From Actinomycetota bacterium (lineage in GTDB: Bacteria > Actinomycetota > Actinomycetes > Actinomycetales > Dermatophilaceae): 64,000 bases of DNA. The notes under the pieces were generated by a model. The model saw nothing but the letters and a program-made list of their open reading frames with translations, was not told the DNA's origin and ran no database searches. This document shows, piece by piece, positions 183 to 11,518 of the stretch. The DNA is taken from assembly GCA_020161815.1 (NCBI GenBank), contig JAIUOP010000001.1, forward strand, positions 1 to 64,000, given 5' to 3'. Position numbers and translations under genes: made by a program. Each line of letters opens with the position of its first letter. Positions within the stretch are counted from its first letter, which is position 1.

Positions 183-203
183 GTTGAGTCCATCAGACGC
201 AAG
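183..203 (+). promoter_or_regulatory. Distal HAIR-like HspR operator
   Basis: GTTGAGT-N7-ACGCAAG matches the HspR operator consensus CTTGAGT-N7-ACTCAAG at 12 of 14 arm positions with the exact 7-base spacer. It lies 63 bases upstream of a second, better site. Paired HAIR sites before dnaK are known in Streptomyces, so this is probably the upstream half of a double operator. Confidence 0.7.
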
Positions 204-218
204 TTTGGAGCGCTCGGC

Positions 219-248
219 TTGCCACGGCATACCGAGTCTTCCTAACTT
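219..248 (+). promoter_or_regulatory. Candidate dnaK promoter
   Basis: TTGCCA (219-224) and TAACTT (243-248) are separated by 18 bases, a plausible vegetative sigma promoter. The -10 hexamer overlaps the proximal HAIR site, so bound HspR would block RNA polymerase. Inferred from sequence only. Confidence 0.5.
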
Positions 249-266
249 GAGTGCAAGCAACTCAAC
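246..266 (+). promoter_or_regulatory. Proximal HAIR operator (HspR site) of dnaK operon
   Basis: CTTGAGT-N7-ACTCAAC differs from the HspR consensus at only the last base. It starts 42 bases before the dnaK ATG and overlaps the candidate -10 hexamer. The repressor gene hspR is the last gene of the same operon, so the arrangement implies autoregulation with DnaK as co-repressor, as established in Streptomyces. Confidence 0.85.
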
Positions 267-287: not shown

Positions 288-2174
288 ATGGCCCGTGCAG
301 TCGGCATCGACCTCGGCACCACCAACTCCGCCGTCGCCGTCCTCGAGGGCGGCGAGCCCACGATCATCGCGAACGCCGAGGGCGGGCGCACCACCCCCTC
401 CGTCGTCGCCTTCACCAAGAACGGCGAGGTCCTCGTCGGCGAGATCGCCAAGCGGCAGGCCGTCACCAACGCCGACCGCACGATCCGCTCGGTCAAGCGC
501 CACATGGGCACCGACTGGAAGTCCGAGGAGATCGACGGCAAGCGCTACTCCGCTCAGGAGATCAGCGCCCGCACCCTCATGAAGCTCAAGCGCGACGCCG
601 AGTCCTACCTCGGCGAGCCCGTCACCGACGCCGTCATCACCGTGCCGGCCTACTTCGACGACGCCGAGCGCCAGGCCACCAAGGAGGCCGGCGAGATCGC
701 GGGCCTGAACGTCCTGCGCATCGTCAACGAGCCGACCGCCGCGGCCCTGGCCTACGGCCTCGACAAGGGCAAGGAGGACGAGCTCATCCTCGTCTTCGAC
801 CTCGGTGGTGGCACCTTCGACGTCTCCCTGCTCGAGGTCGGCAAGGACCCGGAAGACGGCTTCGCCACGATCCAGGTGCGCGCGACGAGCGGTGACAACC
901 AGCTCGGTGGGGACGACTGGGACGAGCGCATCGTCCAGCACCTGCTCACCACGGTGAAGAACAACACCGGCGTCGACCTGTCCAAGGACAAGATCGCCAT
1001 GCAGCGCCTGCGCGACGCCGCCGAGCAGGCCAAGAAGGAGCTCTCCAGCGCCAGCTCGACCAACATCTCGCTGCAGTACCTCTCGATGAGCGAGAACGGC
1101 CCGATCCACCTCGACGAGACGCTGACCCGCGCCCAGTTCGAGCAGATGACCAAGGACCTCCTCGACCGCTGCAAGCAGCCCTTCGAGAACGTCATCAAGG
1201 ACGCCGGCATCAAGGTCGGCGACATCGACCACGTCGTCCTCGTCGGTGGCTCGACCCGTATGCCGGCCGTCTCCGAGCTGGTGAAGACCCTCACCGGTGG
1301 CAAGGAGCCCAACAAGGGTGTCAACCCCGACGAGGTCGTCGCCGCCGGCGCCAGCCTCCAGGCCGGTGTCCTCAAGGGCGAGCGCAAGGACGTCCTCCTC
1401 ATCGACGTCACCCCACTCTCCCTCGGCATCGAGACCAAGGGCGGGCTGTTCACCAAGCTGATCGAGCGCAACACGGCCATCCCGACCAAGCGCTCCGAGG
1501 TCTTCTCCACGGCCGAGGACAACCAGCCCTCGGTCCTCATCCAGGTCTTCCAGGGTGAGCGCGAGATCGCCCAGCAGAACAAGGCGCTCGGCACCTTCGA
1601 GCTGTCCGGCATCGCGCCGGCCCCGCGCGGCGTGCCGCAGATCGAGGTCACCTTCGACATCGACGCAAACGGCATCGTCCACGTCACGGCCAAGGACCGC
1701 GGCACCGGCAAGGAGCAGAAGATCACCATCTCCGGCGGCAGCGCGCTGTCCAAGGAGGAGATCGAGCGAATGGTCAAGGACGCCGAGGCCCACGCCGAGG
1801 AGGACAAGAAGCGTCGCGAGGAGACCGAGGCCCGCAACCTCGGCGAGTCGCTCGTGTTCTCGACCGAGAAGTTCCTCGCCGAGTCCGGCGACAAGGTCGA
1901 CGCCGACCTCCGCAAGCCGGTGGACGAGGCTCTGGCCGACCTCAAGGAGGCCATCAAGGCCGACTCGGGCGCCTCGGTCGAGGACATCAACGCCAAGGTC
2001 AACACCCTCAACGAGGCCTCCCAGAAGATGGGCGCCGCCATGTATGCCGCGCAGGCCGATTCCGCTGCGGGCGCCGGTGACGCCGGGGCCGAGTCGGGCG
2101 AGGCCGGCGCGGGCACCGACAGCGACGACGACATCGTCGACGCCGAGGTGGTCGACGACGAGGAGACCAAGTGA
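288..2174 (+). CDS. dnaK: Hsp70 chaperone DnaK
   Basis: ATP-dependent cytosolic chaperone that binds exposed hydrophobic stretches of unfolded protein, working with DnaJ and GrpE encoded next door. At 628 residues it has the normal bacterial length. The nucleotide-binding domain opens with the phosphate loop GIDLGTTNS (residues 6-14) and carries [10 protein letters not shown] near residue 171. The substrate-binding domain follows after about residue 385, and the tail is acidic ([16 protein letters not shown]). The ATG is preceded by GAAGGAG nine bases away. It is first in the operon, under two HAIR operators, and its stop overlaps the grpE start by four bases, so the two are translationally coupled. 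Identification is secure. Confidence 0.99.
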
Positions 2175-2878
2175 CCCACCACCCGCACCCCGGTGACGAG
2201 GCCTCGGCCGAGCCCGGTGGGTTCGATGAGTTCGACCACGCGGCAGCGGGATCGGCGTCGACCAGCGGTGGCGAGGACGCGGTGAACACCGAGCTCGTCA
2301 ACGACGGTGAGCAGGTGGCCCCGGCAGCAGCCGGGGCCACCGGCCCCGCCGGTGAGTCGTCGGCCACCGCCGGCGCCGAGGCCAGCGACGCGGCGGCCGC
2401 GGCGGGCCCCGAGCACACGGAGCACCCGGACACCGCGCTCGCGGCCCAGCGCCTCGAGGACCTGCAGCGGCTCAACGCCGAGTACGTCAACTACAAGCGC
2501 CGAGTCGACCGTGATCGTGCGGTCACCCAGGAGCGCGTGGTCCGCGACGTCCTCGAGTCCCTGCTGCCCGTCCTCGACGACATCCAGGGCGCGCGGGACC
2601 ACGGCGAGCTCGTCGACGGGCCGTTCGCGGCCATCGCCGACAAGCTCGAGGCGAGCCTGGGCAAGTACGGCCTCGAGCGCTTCGGCGCCACCGGCGAGGC
2701 CTTCGACCCCACGGTCCACGAGGCGCTCATGCACCAGGCCTGGCCGGCCGACGGTCTCGGTGACGTCGCCGTCGACCCCGCCCAGGGCACGACCGTCGTC
2801 ATGGTCCTCCAGGCTGGCTACAAGGCGGGCGAGGTCGTCATCCGGCCCGCTCGCGTGGCCGTGGCCGACCCCGAATGA
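2171..2878 (+). CDS. grpE: Nucleotide exchange factor GrpE
   Basis: Dimeric exchange factor that releases ADP from DnaK and resets its substrate cycle. The 235-residue protein begins with an Ala/Gly/Glu-rich low-complexity stretch of about 85 residues. The alpha-helical coiled coil follows ([20 protein letters not shown]), then the beta-wing domain with the family-typical [10 protein letters not shown] and [17 protein letters not shown] near the C-terminus. It starts at GTG inside the dnaK stop (GTGA overlap). The unusually long disordered N-terminus is common in actinobacterial GrpE. A palindrome-rich spacer separates it from dnaJ. Confidence 0.98.
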
Positions 2879-3012: not shown

Positions 3013-4077
3013 ATGGCAAGCCAGGACTGGTTCGAGAAGGACTTCTACGCGATCCTCGGCGTCCCCCAGGACGCCGACGAGGCCGCGATCAAGAAGGCCT
3101 ACCGCAAGCTCGCCCGCAAGTACCACCCGGACAAGAACCCCGGGGATGCCGCGGCCGAGCAGAGGTTCAAGGACGTCGGCGAGGCCAACTCCGTGCTCTC
3201 CGACGCCAAACAGCGCCAGGAGTACGACGCGATCCGCCAGATGGCGCGCGGTGGCGCCCGCTTCACGGCCGGTGGCCCGGGCGGCAACGGCGGCTTCGAG
3301 GACATCTTCTCGGCCTTCGGTGGCGGCGGTGGTGCCGGCGGGCCCGGTGGCGCGCGCGTCCGCTTCGACACCGGCGGCTACCCCGGCGGCGGCTTCGGCG
3401 GCCCCGGAGGAGCCGGTGGTGGCGACCTCAACGACATCCTCGCCCAGATGTTCGGCGGCGGCGCGCCCGGACGCGGTGGCTATGCCGGCGGCGACTTCGG
3501 TGGCTACGGCGCCCCCCGCGGCCCCCGCAAGGGCCAGGACGTCGAGGCCCGCACCAGCCTGTCCTTCCGCGACGCCGTCACCGGCTCCACCGTGAGCCTG
3601 CGCACCGCCGACGGCCGCACGATCAACACCCGCATCCCCGCCGGGGTGCGTGACGGGCAACGGATCCGCCTGCGCGGCAAGGGCGGCGAGGGCGATCCCG
3701 GTGCCGAGCGTGGCGACCTCTTCCTCGACATCCACGTCGAGAAGCACCCGGTCTTCGGCCGCGATGGCGACAACCTCACGGTCGACCTGCCGGTGACCGT
3801 CGCCGAGGCGACCCTCGGCGCCACGGTCGCCGTCCCCACCATCGACGGCTCCAGCGTCAAGGTGCGCATCGCGCCGGGCACGCCCAGTGGCCGCATCCTG
3901 CGAGTCAAGGGCCGCGGCGTGGCCAGGAAGTCCGGCCACGGTGACCTGCTCGCCAAGGTGAGCATCGTCGTCCCGACCCACCTGAGCGACGCGGCACGCG
4001 AGGCGATCGAGACCCTCGCACGCGAGGACGCCGACGTCGACCCGCGGGCCGAGCTCTTCGCCCGCGCCGAGGCTTGA
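3013..4077 (+). CDS. dnaJ: J-domain co-chaperone DnaJ without zinc finger
   Basis: Stimulates DnaK ATPase and hands over substrates. The 354-residue protein has an N-terminal J domain (about residues 8-75, with the essential HPD in YHPDKN). A long Gly-rich linker rich in FGG/GGPG follows (about 85-175), then two C-terminal beta-sandwich domains with [19 protein letters not shown]. The CxxCxGxG zinc-finger repeats of type I DnaJ are absent, making it type II (CbpA-like). This is notable because dnaK-linked actinobacterial DnaJ1 proteins usually keep the zinc finger. AAGGAGG lies nine bases before the ATG. It is third gene of the hspR-controlled operon. Confidence 0.95.
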
Positions 4078-4083
4078 TCGGCC

Positions 4084-4533
4084 ATGGCGACCGGGCGTGG
4101 GACGGGTGCGGGGGAGGACTCCGCGCCCGTCTTCGTCATCTCGGTGGCGGCCGAGCTCGCCGGGATGCACGCGCAGACCCTGCGCCAGTACGACCGGCTC
4201 GGCCTGGTCAGCCCGTCGCGCACCCGAGGCGGTGGTCGGCGCTACTCCGCCCGCGACGTCTCGCTCCTGCGCGAGGTGCAACGCCTCTCCCAGGAGGGGA
4301 TCAGCCTGGCCGGCATCTCGCGGATCCTCGAGCTGGAGAACCAGGTCGAGGCGCTGCGGGCCCGCGTCGCCGAGCTGGGGGCCGAGCTCGAGGCCAGCCG
4401 CGCCGGGGTACGGCCGCAGTCGCCGCGCGTCTTCTCGGTCTCCACGAGCGGCGATGTGTATGCCGTCCGCCCCGGTGAGCGTCCCCGTCTCACCTCGACC
4501 TCCCGCGAAGTCGTCCGCTGGCGTTCCCTGTGA
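4084..4533 (+). CDS. hspR: Heat-shock repressor HspR (MerR family)
   Basis: DNA-binding repressor of the dnaK and clpB operons that recognises HAIR inverted repeats. The 149 residues open with a MerR winged helix-turn-helix: SVAAELAGMHAQTLRQYDRLGL, then the RRYSARDVSLL wing. A coiled-coil dimerisation helix follows (ILELENQVEALRARVAELGAEL). It lies six bases after dnaJ, the usual last place in the actinobacterial dnaK operon. The matching operators are visible in front of dnaK (183-266) and clpB (8870-8890), so both circuits can be assigned to this protein. Confidence 0.95.
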   Translation: MATGRGTGAGEDSAPVFVISVAAELAGMHAQTLRQYDRLGLVSPSRTRGGGRRYSARDVSLLREVQRLSQEGISLAGISRILELENQVEALRARVAELGAELEASRAGVRPQSPRVFSVSTSGDVYAVRPGERPRLTSTSREVVRWRSL

Positions 4534-4590: not shown

Positions 4591-4596
4591 TAAGGT
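4591..4596 (+). promoter_or_regulatory. Candidate -10 hexamer of the kinase transcript
   Basis: TAAGGT ends seven bases before a GTG codon (4604), the spacing expected of a leaderless mRNA. No convincing -35 is visible. This places the likely transcription start at or next to the first codon of the short leader ORF. Confidence 0.45.
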
Positions 4597-4603
4597 TGAG
4601 CCC

Positions 4604-4693
4604 GTGACCGTGACCCGTTCGCCCCGACTCGCGCCGCAGGTCGCGCGAGCGCAGGCGCATGCCGATCACGCCGGTGATCGGTCGTCCGGGTGA
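4604..4693 (+). CDS. Possible 29-residue leader ORF coupled to the kinase
   Basis: A GTG-initiated ORF of 29 codons begins directly downstream of a TAAGGT -10-like box and stops at TGA within GTGA (4690-4693), where the kinase GTG overlaps it. The peptide is Arg/Ala/His-rich with no recognised motif. Leaderless translation of this ORF followed by re-initiation would explain how the kinase is translated without its own Shine-Dalgarno. It may be only a translational coupler, or chance. No peptide evidence is available. Confidence 0.4.
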   Translation: MTVTRSPRLAPQVARAQAHADHAGDRSSG

Positions 4694-6114
4694 AGCGCTT
4701 CGTCGAAGGACTCCTCGTCGGGGGGCGCTACGAGCTCCTGGGCTTCATCGCCGCCGGCGGCATGGGGGACGTCTGGCGCGCCCGCGACACCGTGCTCTCA
4801 CGCACCGTCGCCCTGAAGATCATGCGACCGGACACCGTCGCCGAGCCGGTCTTCGCCGAGCGCTTCCGGGAGGAGGCGCAGTTCACGGCAGGCCTGTCCC
4901 ACCACAACATCGCGACCACCTTCGACTACGGCCTGCACGAGAACATCGCCTTCCTCGTCATGGAGTACGTCGACGGGGAGTCGCTCTCGTCGATGGTGCG
5001 CCGGGAGGGCGCCCTGGCTCCGGACGAGGTGCGCTCGATCATCGGCCAGATGGCCCTGGCCCTCGGCGCGGCCCATGACGCAGGGGTGATCCACCGCGAC
5101 GTCAAGCCGGCGAACGTCCTGGTCACCCCGGAGGGCACGGTCAAGCTCACCGACTTCGGCATCGCCCGGGCCGTGGGCTCGGTCGGGCTCACGCGCACCG
5201 GCGAGACGCTGGGCACGCCCTTCTACCTCTCCCCCGAGCAGGCCCTGGGCAAGTCGGCCACCAAGGCCAGCGACGTCTATGCCCTCGGCGTCGTGGCCCA
5301 CGAGCTGCTCACCGGCCGGCGGCCCTTCGACCGGGACACCCCGGTCGCCACGGCGATCGCCCACGTCACCGACCCGATGCCGGCCCTGCCCTCGGACATC
5401 CCCGCGGAGCTCGTCGACATCATCACTCGGTGCCTGGACAAGGACCCCAGGAACCGGCCGGCCCATGTCCACGAGGTCGCCACGGCCATGGGCCTGTCGT
5501 GGGTGGAGATCCCGACAACTCGCGTGGTCGCGCCGCCGCCCCAGCGACCCAGGACCCTCGTGCCCGAGGCGCGGCTGCTCGACATCCTCGTGCCGCGCAA
5601 GGGGCGCATTCTCGTCATCGGCGCTCGCGCCCTCCTGGCTGCGGTCGACCTCGGCACGCTGGGCCATCGGGTGTGGGGAATGGATGCGTCCGAGTCCGTC
5701 GTCAGGGAGCTCAATGACGCTCCCGTGGAGGAGTCGACGGACTCGAGCCTGGCCACGACCGGTGGCACGCCCCGCGAGAAGCCGCAGTGGGTGGCGATCC
5801 CCAACCCCGCTCACGCCACCCGCGAGGCTCTGGGCGTCGCCTCCGGCTTCGATGCCATCCTCTGGTCCGGTGGTGGCCTGCTCGAGCTGTCCCGGCTCGA
5901 GCGCGGCGATGCCTTCCGTGCGCTGGCCCCGCTGTGCGCACCCGGCGGCCGCATCGTCGTCGAGTTCGACTCCACACCGGAGTACACCTACCCCGAGTTC
6001 CGTGACGACTTCCTCGCTGCGGGACTGGTGCCCGACCTGGGCTTCTCCGGCTGGGACCTGCGCCCGATGGTCGCGGACTCCGAGACGACGATCGTCATCC
6101 TGTCCCGCCGCTGA
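4690..6114 (+). CDS. Soluble Ser/Thr protein kinase fused to a methyltransferase-like domain
   Basis: The N-terminal 270 residues form a complete Hanks-type kinase: Gly-rich loop GFIAAGGMGDVW, ATP lysine K43 (VALKIM), catalytic HRD 135-137 (VIHRDVKPAN), DFG at 155-157 and SPEQA. The kinase is therefore probably active. Unlike PknA/PknB it has no membrane segment. After a linker, residues ~300-474 look like a Rossmann methyltransferase: GRILVIGARALLAAVDL, an acidic GMDAS turn, DAILWSGGG, and a LAPLCAPGGRIVVEF strand. The glycine motif I is degenerate, so it may bind a ligand rather than methylate. It starts at GTG overlapping a leader ORF. Substrate unknown. Confidence 0.85.
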   Translation: MKRFVEGLLVGGRYELLGFIAAGGMGDVWRARDTVLSRTVALKIMRPDTVAEPVFAERFREEAQFTAGLSHHNIATTFDYGLHENIAFLVMEYVDGESLSSMVRREGALAPDEVRSIIGQMALALGAAHDAGVIHRDVKPANVLVTPEGTVKLTDFGIARAVGSVGLTRTGETLGTPFYLSPEQALGKSATKASDVYALGVVAHELLTGRRPFDRDTPVATAIAHVTDPMPALPSDIPAELVDIITRCLDKDPRNRPAHVHEVATAMGLSWVEIPTTRVVAPPPQRPRTLVPEARLLDILVPRKGRILVIGARALLAAVDLGTLGHRVWGMDASESVVRELNDAPVEESTDSSLATTGGTPREKPQWVAIPNPAHATREALGVASGFDAILWSGGGLLELSRLERGDAFRALAPLCAPGGRIVVEFDSTPEYTYPEFRDDFLAAGLVPDLGFSGWDLRPMVADSETTIVILSRR

Positions 6115-6126
6115 GCCGGAGCCGCG

Positions 6127-7086
6127 TCAGGCGCGAGCGGCTCGGAAGGTCTCTCGAGCGGAGTCCTCGACGGAGCGTGGGGTCGTGCCGAAGGTCCGCG
6201 CCGAGGCGAGCGGGTCCAGGTGCAGGTCCTCACTCAGCAACCTCGCCAGGCCGACCGGCTCCAGCCCGGACTCCTTCCCGCTGAGGCGCAGACGCGCCTT
6301 CTCGGCGAGGAGTGACGCCGTGAGTATGCCGTGGGGCAGGGTCAGGAGCGGCACCCTGCGGTCCCATTCGGCCAGGGCCCAGTGCGCCAGCTGGCGATGC
6401 GAGACGTTGTCGGTGCAGACCGGATGGCGTCCGGCGGGGGAGGCGCCGGTGGCCGCGGCCACTGCGGCCAGGGCCACGTCCTCGGCGGTGGTGGCGCTCG
6501 TGCCGCCGGGGAGGGTGACGGCGACCGGCCCGCGACGCAACGGGGCCAGGTAGGTGTCGCACCACAGGGGAGCCCGCCCCTCCACCGTCCCGAAGACGAA
6601 GGGGATCTCGAGCACGGTCACCGCGGCCTCGGGGGCCAGCCGGACGGCGTCCCGCCACTGCGCTTCCCGAGCGTCGACATAGGGGTGGCGTGCCACCAGG
6701 CCCCACTCGGGGTGAGCCCGTGCGACGGTGGAGAAGTAGGAGCCGAGGACCACCAGCCGTGGCACCCTCGCGATCGTGACGCTGTCGGCGATGAGGCGCG
6801 TCGGGGCGACGAGCTCGGTCTCGAAGAATCGGCGTGCCGGCCGAGGCGGCCGCTCCCGGTCGTCCGCTCCGACGGCCTGGACGACGGCGTCGGCGCCGTC
6901 GAGGATCCGAGCCAGGTCAGCGGGTGCCGCGCGGGTCACGTCGAGCCGGGCCTCGGCATACGAAGGGTGCTGGAAGCCATGGCCCCCGCGGCGGGAGACG
7001 CCCACGACACCGTGGCCACCCGCGAGCAGGGCGTCCACGATCGCGCGCCCGAGCTGGCCGGTGGCCCCGATGACGACGATCCGCAC
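6127..7086 (-). CDS. NAD(P)-binding epimerase/NmrA-like protein
   Basis: Atypical extended SDR-fold protein of 319 residues. The N-terminal dinucleotide-binding loop is intact (VVIGATGQLGRAIVDALLAGG, G-x-x-G-x-x-G), followed by an acidic/neutral second strand and DGADAVVQAVGA. The canonical YxxxK catalytic pair is not clear; the nearest candidate is HPYVDAREAQ, which lacks the lysine, so it may be a redox sensor or chaperone-like binder rather than a reductase. The GTG start lies seven bases downstream of TAGGCT on the minus strand (7099-7094), consistent with a leaderless transcript. It is convergent with the kinase gene, only 12 bases away. Substrate unknown. Confidence 0.75.
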   Translation of the reverse strand: MRIVVIGATGQLGRAIVDALLAGGHGVVGVSRRGGHGFQHPSYAEARLDVTRAAPADLARILDGADAVVQAVGADDRERPPRPARRFFETELVAPTRLIADSVTIARVPRLVVLGSYFSTVARAHPEWGLVARHPYVDAREAQWRDAVRLAPEAAVTVLEIPFVFGTVEGRAPLWCDTYLAPLRRGPVAVTLPGGTSATTAEDVALAAVAAATGASPAGRHPVCTDNVSHRQLAHWALAEWDRRVPLLTLPHGILTASLLAEKARLRLSGKESGLEPVGLARLLSEDLHLDPLASARTFGTTPRSVEDSARETFRAARA

Positions 7087-7146: not shown

Positions 7147-8842
7147 GTGACCGACACCAGGCCCGTGATCCTCATTGCCTCCGACGCGGACCTCGAGCAC
7201 CTGGTGGACGAGTTCGGTCGCTACGCCCGTGACTAGCGCCTCGTGGGCGGGGCCTCGATCCACGAGGCGATGACGGCCCTGGAAACCCTCGTCCGGGAGG
7301 GGGCCAGGATCGCGCTCCTGGTCGTCGACTCACGGCTCGCCGAGGGGGAGGCGGAGGCGCTCAAGGCGGTGCACAAGCTGCGGACGGTGGTCCCGACCGC
7401 CCGGCGGATGGTGACCTGCCGCTGGGAGAACTTTCGCGAGGACGCGGAGCAGCTGCGACCGGCGCTGGCCAAGGGCAAGCTCGACGTCGTCGCGCTCACC
7501 CCCCGAGGACCGCGGGACGAGGAGTACCACTCCGCCGTCATCGACCTGCTCAACGACTGGGCCTCCACCGTGGGCGGGCACGAGGTGGACTCGGTCGCCA
7601 TCGTCACGCCCGGGCGCGAGGGCCTGACCGACCTGCTCCGGGACTACATGGACCGGGTCTGCATCCCCCACCGCGTGCACGACCCGGACTCCGAGCTCGG
7701 CCGGTCGGTCGTCGAGCGGGCGCGGGCGCAGGGCATCAGGGACGACGTGTGGCCGCTGCTCAGCGTCTTCTCCGCCGACACGGTCATCGCGCCCACGTCG
7801 ATCACCGACCTGGCCGTCGCGATCTACGGACGGCCCGACGACATCGACGTCGACCAGGTCGTCGACGTCGTCATCGTCGGCGCGGGTCCGGCGGGGCTGG
7901 CCGCCTCGGTCTACGCCTCGAGCGAGGGCCTGACGACGGTGACCCTCGAGTCCGAGGCGATCGGCGGCCAGGCCGGCACCTCGTCGATGATCCGCAACTA
8001 CCTCGGCTTCCCCCGGGCATCTCCGGGATGCGCCTGGCCCAGCGGGCCCGCGCCCAGGCGATCCGGTTCGGGACCCGCTTCTTCACCGGGTGGCCGGTCA
8101 ACGGCTCACGATCGGCCGCAACGGTGAGCCGCACGTCGTCCACACCGACGGGGGCTCCCTGCGGGCGCGGGCAGTCGTCATCGCCTGCGGCGTGGCCTAT
8201 CGCCGCCTCGGCGTCGACGCCATCGACGACCTCGTCGGCCAGGGCGTCAACTACGGAGCGGCGATGACCGCGGCCCGCGACATGGACGACGTCGACGTCA
8301 TCGTCGTCGGCGGGGGCAACTCGGCGGGCCAGGCCGCGGTGCACCTCGCGCGTTTCGCCCGGTCGGTGACGATCGTCGTCCGCCGCCCCGACCTCACGGC
8401 CACCATGTCGCGCTACCTCATCGACGAGATCGAGTTCAACCCGCGGATCGAGGTCCTGGGTCACCATGCCGTCGTCGACGGCGGGGCCGACGAGGACGGT
8501 CGGCTCGGCTGGGTCACCCTCGAGGACGTCCGCTCGGGGGAACGCGCTCGACGCGAGGTCCGCGGCCTCTTCCTGCTGCTCGGCGCGACGGTGACCTGCG
8601 ACTGGCTCCCACCCACGATCGCCCGCGACGAGAAGGGCTTCGTCCTCACTGGGCGCTCGATCCCCTGGGAGGCCTGGGGCGGGCCGGTGCCGCCGGAGAC
8701 CCTGGCCACCTCCGTGCCCGGGTTGTTCGCCGTCGGCGACATCCGGTCCGGGTCGATGAAGCGCGTCGCGTCCGCCACGGGTGAGGGCGCCAGCGTCGTC
8801 CCCCTCGTCCACGCCCACCTCGAGGGTTCAGCGGGACGGTGA
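7147..8842 (+). pseudogene. Broken receiver-domain/thioredoxin-reductase-like fusion gene
   Basis: Read through its lesions this encodes about 565 residues. An N-terminal response-regulator-like domain (VILIASDADLEHLVDEFGRYARD) is followed by a flavin reductase with FAD loop [46 protein letters not shown] loop VIVVGGGNSAGQAAVHLARFA and the terminal VPGLFAVGDIRSGSMKRVASATGEGASVV. Three lesions break it: an in-frame TAG at 7234-7236 (codon 30), a frame change near 8011-8016 within CCCCCGGG, and another near 8088-8100. Each frameshift is restored by one added base. The GTG start lies six bases after TAGGCT. Alternatives are translation from internal starts (7243, 8090) or sequencing errors at G/C runs. 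Confidence 0.8.
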
Positions 8843-8869: not shown

Positions 8870-8890
8870 GTTGAGCGGAATGCACTCAAC
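8870..8890 (+). promoter_or_regulatory. HAIR operator (HspR site) before clpB
   Basis: GTTGAGC-N7-ACTCAAC matches the HspR consensus CTTGAGT-N7-ACTCAAG at 11 of 14 arm positions with correct spacing. It is itself a near-perfect inverted repeat and lies 57 bases before the clpB start. This puts clpB in the same regulon as the dnaK operon. Confidence 0.8.
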
Positions 8891-8947: not shown

Positions 8948-11518
8948 ATGGAGCTCAAGCCGACCAACAAGGTGGCCGAGGCCTTGGCGATCGCCACGCG
9001 CACCGCCCAGGCCAATGGCAACGCCGAAGTCACCCCTGACCACCTCACGAGCAGCCTCATCCAGCTCGACACCCCCCAGGCCGACCGCCTGCTCCAGGCG
9101 GCGGGCACGGGAGCCGGTCACGTGCTGAGTCAGGCCGATGCCCGCCTCCGGGCGCTCCCGACGACCTCGGGCTCGGCCCAGGCGCCGACCTTCGGCCGGG
9201 AGGCGCTCGCCGTGCTGCAGCGCGCCGACACGCTCATGCGCGCCAAGGGTGACAGCTACCTCGCCCTCGACCTTCTCCTGCTCGCCCTCGCCGAGACCGG
9301 CCACCTGGCCGCCGTCGAGCAGCGGGGCGCCAAGGACATGGAGCGCACGATCGATGACCTGCGTGGCGGTCGCAAGGTCACCTCCGAGACCCCGGCCGAG
9401 GGCGGGGAGTCCCTCGAGAAGTACGGCACCGACCTCACCGCCGCCGCTCGCGACGGCAAGCTCGACCCGGTGATCGGCCGCGACAGCGAGATCCGCCGCG
9501 TCGTCCAGGTCCTCTCCCGGCGCACCAAGAACAACCCGGTGCTCATCGGTGAGCCCGGCGTCGGCAAGACCGCCGTCGTCGAGGGCCTGGCCCAGCGCAT
9601 CGTCGACGGCGACGTCCCGGAGTCGCTGCGCGACAAGCGCCTCGTCAGCCTCGACCTCGGCGCGATGGTCGCCGGCGCGAAGTACCGCGGTGAGTTCGAG
9701 GAGCGCCTCAAGGCCGTGCTCGAGGAGATCAAGGCCAGTGACGGCCAGATCGTCACGTTCATCGACGAGCTGCACACCGTCGTCGGCGCCGGCGCGACCG
9801 GCGAGGGTGCCATGGACGCCGGGAACATGCTCAAGCCGATGCTGGCCCGCGGCGAGCTGCGCCTCGTCGGCGCGACGACGCTCGACGAGTTCCGCGAGCA
9901 CATCGAGAAGGACCCGGCCCTGGAGCGCCGCTTCCAGCAGGTCTTCGTCGGCGAGCCCAGCGTCGAGGACACGATCGCGATCCTGCGCGGGCTCAAGGAG
10001 CGCTACGAGGCCCACCACAAGGTCGAGATCGAGGACTCGGCCCTCGTCGCGGCGGCGGCCCTCTCCGACCGCTACATCACCGGGCGACAGCTGCCGGACA
10101 AGGCCATCGACCTCGTCGACGAGGCCGCCTCGCGACTGCGGATGGAGATCGACTCCAGCCCGGTCGAGATCGACCAGCTCCAGCGCGCTGTCGACCGGCT
10201 CAAGATGGAGGAGCTGCACTTGGCCAAGGAGAGCGACGAGGCATCGGTCGAGCGCCTCGGTCGGCTGCGCGCCGACCTCGCCGAGAAGTCGGAGGCGCTC
10301 GCCGGGCTCACCGCCCGCTGGGAGCAGGAGAAGTCCGGGCTTAACCGGATCGGTGAGCTGCGAGCCCAGCTCGACGACCTGCGGACCACCGCCGACAAGC
10401 TCCAGCGTGAGGGCGACTACGAAGGCGCCTCGCGGATCCGCTACGGCGACATCCCGACCCTCGAGAAGGAGCTCGCCTCGGCGAGCGCGCTCGAGGCCGA
10501 GACCACCGCGTCGGGGGACCTCATGGTCAAGGAGCGCGTGGGCGCCGACGACATCGCCGAGGTGATCTCGGCGTGGACCGGCATCCCCGCGGGCCGCCTG
10601 CTCCAGGGGGAGACCGAGAAGCTGCTCTCGATGGAGTCGATCATCGGCTCGCGCCTCATCGGCCAGGCCGACGCGGTGCGTGTCGTCTCGGATGCGGTGC
10701 GCCGCAGCCGAGCCGGCATCGCCGACCCCGACCGCCCGACCGGCTCCTTCCTCTTCCTCGGTCCGACGGGTGTGGGCAAGACCGAGCTCGCCAAGTCGCT
10801 CGCCGACTTCCTCTTCGACGACGAGCGGGCCATGGTGCGCATCGACATGTCGGAGTACTCCGAGCGGCACGCCGTCGCGCGTCTCATCGGAGCGCCTCCC
10901 GGCTACGTCGGCTACGAGGAGGGCGGCCAGCTCACCGAGGCCGTGCGTCGTCGCCCCTACTCCGTCGTGCTGCTCGACGAGGTCGAGAAGGCGCATCCGG
11001 AGGTCTTCGACATCCTGCTCCAGGTGCTCGACGACGGTCGGCTCACCGATGGCCAGGGGCGCACCGTCGACTTCCGCAACGTGATCCTCGTCCTCACGAG
11101 CAACCTGGGGAGCCAGTTCCTCGTCGACCCGCTGCTCGAGCCGGAGGCGAAGAAGGAGGCGGTCATGGCGGCCGTCCGGTCGTCCTTCAAGCCGGAGTTC
11201 CTCAACCGGCTCGACGAGATCGTCCTCTTCGACCCGCTCTCCCGGGACGAGCTCGCGCACATCGTCGACCTGCAGGTACGCGCCCTGGCCACGCGGCTGC
11301 GTGACCGGCGGATCACCCTGGAGGTCACCGACGCGGCGCGCGCCTGGCTCGCCGAGCAGGGCTACGACCCGGCATACGGGGCGCGCCCGCTGCGCCGACT
11401 GGTCCAGCGCGAGATCGGGGACCGGCTGGCCCGAGCCCTCCTCGCCGGCGACGTGCGGGACGGGCAGTCGGCCGTGGTCGACATCGACCCGGAGACCGGT
11501 GGCCTGACGCTGCGCTGA
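8948..11518 (+). CDS. clpB: Disaggregase chaperone ClpB
   Basis: Hexameric AAA+ unfoldase that extracts polypeptides from aggregates together with DnaK. The 856 residues include a Clp N-domain (about 1-145) and AAA-1 with Walker A GEPGVGKT (about 201-208) and Walker B TFIDELH. The ClpB/Hsp104-specific middle coiled coil (about 395-515) and AAA-2 with GPTGVGKTE (about 605) and [14 protein letters not shown] follow, then the D2-small domain ([19 protein letters not shown]). The middle domain distinguishes it from ClpA/ClpC. GGAGAA lies about 13 bases before the ATG. The HAIR site upstream implies HspR repression. It precedes an unrelated lipoprotein gene with its own start signal. Confidence 0.98.

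Follow-up and report, generated by a model that had tools for sequence, protein, structure and literature searches.

A soluble PknB-type kinase with a putative pseudo-methyltransferase tail, encoded directly downstream of hspR in five actinobacterial genomes

Actinobacterial PknB-type kinases usually have a membrane anchor and an extracellular sensor. The PASTA kinases (PknB/Stk1, NCBI model NF033483) carry a membrane helix and PASTA repeats. Among methyltransferases of known structure, 3cgg is a TehB-like SAM-dependent enzyme of Corynebacterium glutamicum. In the heat-shock system, as far as the passages of the source dealing with it go, HspR represses dnaK, grpE, dnaJ and hspR via HAIR operators and also regulates clpB (PMC8223512). 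The operon in those passages consists of dnaK, grpE, dnaJ and hspR, with no kinase named there; in the locus described here, a kinase fusion follows hspR.

This gene (4690..6114, forward strand) lies in a window, the whole stretch of DNA that was analysed, of 64,000 nucleotides at the start of contig JAIUOP010000001.1. It starts with GTG, has an open reading frame and encodes 474 residues, a kinase followed by a pseudo-methyltransferase. A preliminary description had proposed a kinase fused to a degenerate methyltransferase-like domain, and this is right, as indicated by the PF00069 match and the methyltransferase fold of the tail. The fusion is built from known parts, a kinase and a methyltransferase fold. 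We consider it probable that the protein is a soluble PknB-type Ser/Thr kinase whose C-terminal pseudo-methyltransferase is kept as a docking or regulatory module. The open-licence literature searched held neither a kinase-methyltransferase fusion nor a comparable pseudo-enzyme.

The check suggested with that description, a search for the same fusion in relatives, found it in five of the 186 genomes of the bacterial family. In these, a profile of the whole fusion was matched at all 457 positions (817-867 bits), while the other matches listed for the family end by position 296 and reach at most 448 bits. A wide distribution is thus rejected, as far as this family and the order and class samples below reach. 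The five genomes belong to two genera and comprise that of the window, G022 (likely Phycicoccus elongatus Lp2), G020 (likely Nostocoides sp. F2B08) and two Intrasporangiaceae metagenome assemblies (G111 and G093). Because the full-length architecture is identical in five genomes, chance and assembly error are ruled out as its source. In a sample of 396 genomes of the order, the window gave the only full-length match among those listed. Sixteen matches passed E 1e-32 in a sample of 394 genomes of the class: the window at 274 bits, and 15 others, judged by score and start position, at no more than 122.6 bits that start at position 26 or later. A single-sequence scan of genome contigs returned 0 relatives.

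The N-terminal part of the protein (residues 15-258; 4732..5463, forward strand) is a Hanks/PknB-type Ser/Thr kinase domain, matched by PF00069 with E 4.6e-50 and 170.9 bits against a cut-off of 31.7. Alignment of the five fusions finds K43, E61/E62, H135-R136-D137, N142, D155-F156-G157, T168/T170 and E183 identical in all of them. Of these, we take K43 to be the catalytic lysine, residues 135-137 and 155-157 the HRD and DFG motifs, and T168/T170 part of the activation loop. The domain thus appears intact with its catalytic residues kept, as expected of the complete Hanks kinase first described. The nearest NCBI model, that of the PASTA kinases, scores 329.6 bits over residues 8-266, below its family cut-off of 450.

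The kinase is followed by a linker (residues 259-290; 5464..5559, forward strand) that is mostly modelled with low confidence and lacks a membrane helix. A Kyte-Doolittle scan with 19-residue windows found no stretch of membrane-helix quality anywhere C-terminal to the kinase; the highest mean, 1.77, falls on strand 1 of the methyltransferase-fold domain. The absence of a membrane helix, also claimed initially, is therefore borne out. A PASTA or membrane kinase is rejected on the NF033483 score, the lack of a helix and the fold of the C-terminal part. The full-length model of the fusion protein has a mean pLDDT of 67, with values below 50 in the activation-loop region, and in view of this low confidence no claim is made on how kinase and tail are arranged. 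All 50 matches listed in a full-length fold search are kinases, because the kinase dominates the search; PknA and PknB are the nearest solved kinases among them.

Class I methyltransferases alternate strands and helices and have an antiparallel strand 7 hairpin. Modelling shows this same class I (Rossmann-like) fold as the predicted structure of the tail (residues 291-474; 5560..6111, forward strand). In an AlphaFold2 model of residues 285-474, made with five relatives (pLDDT 85.9, pTM 0.84), strands and helices follow the class I order and an antiparallel strand 6/7 hairpin stands at the end. Foldseek gives 3cgg as the best PDB match (E 5.5e-14, TM 0.79/0.81), as does VIA-align 2 (Z 22.9, 2.7 Å, 166 residues), where the runner-up CcbJ (Z 22.2) is tied within 1. 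Sequence comparison leads to the same structure: 3cgg_A is the first match of a profile of the five fusion tails (2e-18) and is also found with the window tail alone (7.3e-6). Neither Pfam nor NCBIfam names a family C-terminal to the kinase, and a Pfam scan of residues 285-474 alone returned 0 families even at E 10, the SAM-dependent methyltransferase profile PF13649 included. A known non-Rossmann fold is rejected, since the model, Foldseek and VIA-align 2 all give a methyltransferase fold. Structure prediction and search of the tail had been put forward initially as the step that could overturn a Rossmann reading; that reading survives, and the later strands are intact, as had been supposed.

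The parent of the tail, judged by sequence similarity, appears to be a family of stand-alone 3cgg-like methyltransferases that is common in this bacterial family. A search with the tail profile found relatives in 138 of the 186 genomes at E 1e-12, and those examined, the five fusions aside, stand alone, measure about 205 residues and have their SAM motifs intact. This genome itself has such a methyltransferase on another contig (G000:C5:101240-101740, locus L039), which matches 3cgg_A at 4.6e-51. For comparison with the tails, 42 stand-alones were used, namely the best non-identical ones from fetched loci rather than all 1e-12 matches. In 58 columns at least 40 of the 42 are the same; 14 of these columns survive in every one of the five fusions and 44 do not, part of the 44 falling in the loosely aligned linker. 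The kept columns, which include E293, D298, L308, G325, V328, D388, G420, G445, L457 and P459, we read as structural.

The losses affect both SAM and substrate motifs. SAM motif I (5605..5637, forward strand) reads RILVIGARALL in the window instead of the RILDAGCGPGR of stand-alones, so that the glycine motif is indeed spoiled, in line with the preliminary description. All three glycines of GxGxG are each present in 42/42 stand-alones; a single one is left in the window, which also lacks the Asp. Equally invariant in the stand-alones (42/42 each), the motif I Asp, the Asn and Val of the GNV loop and the Arg of GRGY are lost in all five fusions, as are the motif III-like Asp pair and the N-terminal HSxWY helix, leaving none of the pocket elements (GNV, GRGY Arg, HSxWY helix) in any fusion. 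In the window, PNPAHATR replaces GDLAELDL, WSGGGLLEL replaces CAGNVMTFL and EFDSTPEYTY replaces GFGAGRGYPF, and the kinase linker occupies the place of the HSxWYxxRF helix. The former GNV pocket loop (5863..5880, forward strand) is now W392-SGGGL. This tryptophan, at the end of strand 4, is found in 5/5 fusions and 0/42 stand-alones, which mostly have Cys or Ser there, and it may plug the former pocket.

Erosion is graded, from the stand-alones through three Nostocoides-type fusions to the window and G022. In the three, GxGxGR survives (as GCGSGR, GVGTGR or GVGDGR), as does an acidic loop of the VVDPSEE kind, and they still match Methyltransf_25 at 1.7e-7 to 6e-11, compared with 1.6e-16 to 5.6e-12 for four stand-alones. 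The tails of the window and G022 match neither this nor any other Pfam family; of the motif I glycines, the window keeps one of three and G022 none, and G022 has also lost the acidic residue. Working enzyme, half-eroded and eroded fusions thus coexist in living relatives, and such intermediates make it possible to test stepwise how an enzyme turns into a regulator.

Since its SAM and substrate motifs are lost, the window tail is best described as a putative pseudo-methyltransferase, and control by SAM is unlikely for the window protein. The initial suggestion was that SAM or a nucleotide regulates the kinase; the tail would then be a small-molecule sensor in which binding of SAM, SAH or a nucleotide persists and acts as a switch on the kinase. 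Given the state of motif I, the Asp pair, the GNV loop, the Arg and the HSxWY helix, this is not supported for the window protein, and we regard a sensor as improbable overall. It would fit the fold, which is a SAM-binding one, as well as the retention of GxGxGR, the acidic loop and a Methyltransf_25 score in three of five fusions, and of D332 and one motif I glycine in the window protein. Nevertheless, the glycine loop is ruined in both the window and G022, the other SAM and pocket elements listed above are gone from all five, and the position of the fixed tryptophan holds Cys or Ser in most stand-alones. The three Nostocoides-type fusions may still bind a ligand, given the glycine loop and acidic residue that they keep. 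The same two features could speak for a bifunctional enzyme with both kinase and methyltransferase activity, in the other genus at least. The three Nostocoides-type fusions, however, also lack the GNV loop, the conserved Arg and the N-terminal helix, all of them invariant or almost invariant among stand-alones, which makes such an enzyme very improbable.

The tail has also evolved quickly. Between genome pairs, it changes at amino-acid sites about three times faster than the kinase (dN 0.34-0.82 versus 0.09-0.23). Comparisons among the Nostocoides-type fusions give a dN/dS of about 0.45-0.53 in the tail, against 0.12-0.16 in the kinase; the cross-genus figure for the tail, approximately 0.75-1.06, is rough and near saturation. 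Identity between the two fusion tails from the window and G022 is 45%, compared with 73% between the stand-alone methyltransferases of the same two genomes. Fast evolution would fit release from catalysis and is by itself no proof of a new role, so constraint on the tail may be weak in this genus, or the domain may be decaying. Taken further, these rates and the lost acidic residue of G022 could mean that the tail is a passenger, an accidentally fused domain that decays without a role beside a kinase that is the sole working part. Against this stand the open reading frame in all five genomes, the kept fold core (the 14 columns), a C-terminal LSRR end that is the same in 5/5, and the novel tryptophan and single origin shared by two genera. 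We therefore consider a passenger a shade less probable still than a sensor, and favour a tail retained as a docking or regulatory module, possibly linked to heat shock, as the best guess at its function.

The fusion has a single origin, its tails and its kinases each forming one clade, and it derives from a PknB-like kinase. In a tree of 47 tails, from which locus L011 was left out as a duplicate of G022, the five fusions group with support of 100/100, with long terminal branches leading to L130 and G022. The kinase tree likewise joins the five (SH-aLRT 100) and places them with ten short kinases in a clade of 15 (SH-aLRT 99). Within the short-kinase group, the C-terminus seems to be swapped often; two members, L068 and L074, end in a hydrophobic segment that is preceded by a long linker, and others have short soluble tails. 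As the fusion clade neighbours short kinases in the tree, the likely path would begin with a PknB-like kinase that loses its membrane and PASTA parts and then gains a copy of the stand-alone methyltransferase. The acquired domain would have ceased to bind SAM, fully in this genus and partly in the other, and would have been retained as a rigid module for docking or regulation, serving to recruit substrates or to control how kinases pair.

The genomic setting is a heat-shock locus. Pfam and NCBIfam name the neighbours on the forward strand as dnaK (288..2174), grpE (2171..2878), dnaJ (3013..4077), the heat-shock repressor gene hspR (4084..4533; NF047375 143.5 bits against a cut-off of 105) and clpB (8948..11518), so the division genes assumed in the preliminary description were a mistake, and a division-gene context is rejected. 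In all five fusion loci, the fusion lies directly downstream of dnaK-grpE-dnaJ-hspR on the same strand. Among 15 other family genomes searched, 14 have an hspR match, and none of these 14 has a kinase in the approximately 1.5 kb downstream of it. G068, of the same genus, has hspR with no fusion behind it, and the gene is therefore dispensable. G066 lacks both the fusion and an hspR match, and because of the latter a gap in the assembly may explain the missing fusion.

An NAD(P)-binding epimerase-like gene (6127-7086, reverse strand) is convergent with the fusion and has no tblastn match in the other four fusion loci. Downstream of the fusion and before clpB, a gene for an FAD-dependent oxidoreductase with an N-terminal extension (7147-8842) is broken by an in-frame TAG (7234-7236) and by shifts of frame near 8000-8100, and is either a pseudogene or the product of assembly errors; in G022 (L126), it is a single open frame of 566 residues.

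HAIR-like sites, defined as within 3 mismatches, were found three times in the window, compared with 0.78 expected (6 of 100 shuffles reach three). Two are HspR operator candidates upstream of dnaK (183-203 and 246-266, together 183..266, forward strand) and one lies upstream of clpB (8870..8890, forward strand). Such sites precede dnaK in 5/5 fusion loci. The gap between hspR and the kinase, 70-156 bp long across the five, has no HAIR site at up to 3 mismatches in any of them, and direct HspR control through such a site at the kinase is rejected. As to possible read-through from the dnaK operon, the gap in the window is 156 bp with both genes on the same strand, and no terminator-like site was found. 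A sigma-70 scan gave nothing for the kinase on its strand.

An alignment of the gaps hints at another form of control. The window has a TANNNT -10-like element (TAAGGT; 4591..4596, forward strand) 7 nt before the GTG of a possible leaderless upstream ORF (4604..4693, forward strand), whose stop overlaps the start codon of the kinase. In all five gaps, TANNNT stands 6-7 nt before an ATG or GTG that opens an ORF of 7-29 codons (29 here, 7-10 in the others) with its stop touching the kinase start. Per-locus shuffles reach this arrangement in 0.06% to 2.3% of cases, in a post hoc test on five loci, three of them closely related. The pattern was picked after the alignment had been seen, and the arrangement is thus a lead. 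No conserved peptide is found in the upstream ORFs across the five genomes. The parts of PMC3898074 on this subject describe TANNNT-associated start sites and leaderless genes as common in M. tuberculosis. A dedicated promoter between hspR and the kinase, and not an HspR operator, may drive the kinase.

Position, the sole pointer to heat shock, perhaps links the kinase to that response. Its likeliest substrates would be products of the same locus, namely HspR, DnaK or ClpB. A more specific version is a long shot: the tail would recruit one component of the dnaK-hspR-clpB machinery, or sense how heavily it is loaded, with HspR, DnaK or ClpB as the target of phosphorylation by the kinase. If true, it would add a layer of phosphorylation to the actinobacterial HspR heat-shock circuit. 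Searches of the open-licence literature found nothing beyond general papers on Tetrasphaera kinases or on phosphorylation of HspR or DnaK by such kinases.

In summary, the locus combines features of several known systems and differs from each. The kinase domain is related to that of PASTA kinases, but the fusion has neither their membrane helix nor their repeats. Closest in the kinase tree are short, PknB-like kinases from within this bacterial family (e.g. L132-L134), which have other, mostly short tails and no methyltransferase domain. While the fusions adjoin hspR, these short kinases sit away from the heat-shock locus, since none of the heat-shock genes looked for is present in any of 13 loci of 17-19 kb. 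The tail shares its fold over its whole length with 3cgg, but 3cgg and its actinobacterial relatives are stand-alone proteins with SAM motifs and N-terminal helix intact, whereas the fusion tail has lost both and is joined to a kinase. The dnaK-grpE-dnaJ-hspR operon has HAIR operators, and the kinase itself has none. Here, what appears to be a dead metabolic-enzyme fold takes the place of the usual anchor and sensor of actinobacterial PknB-type kinases.
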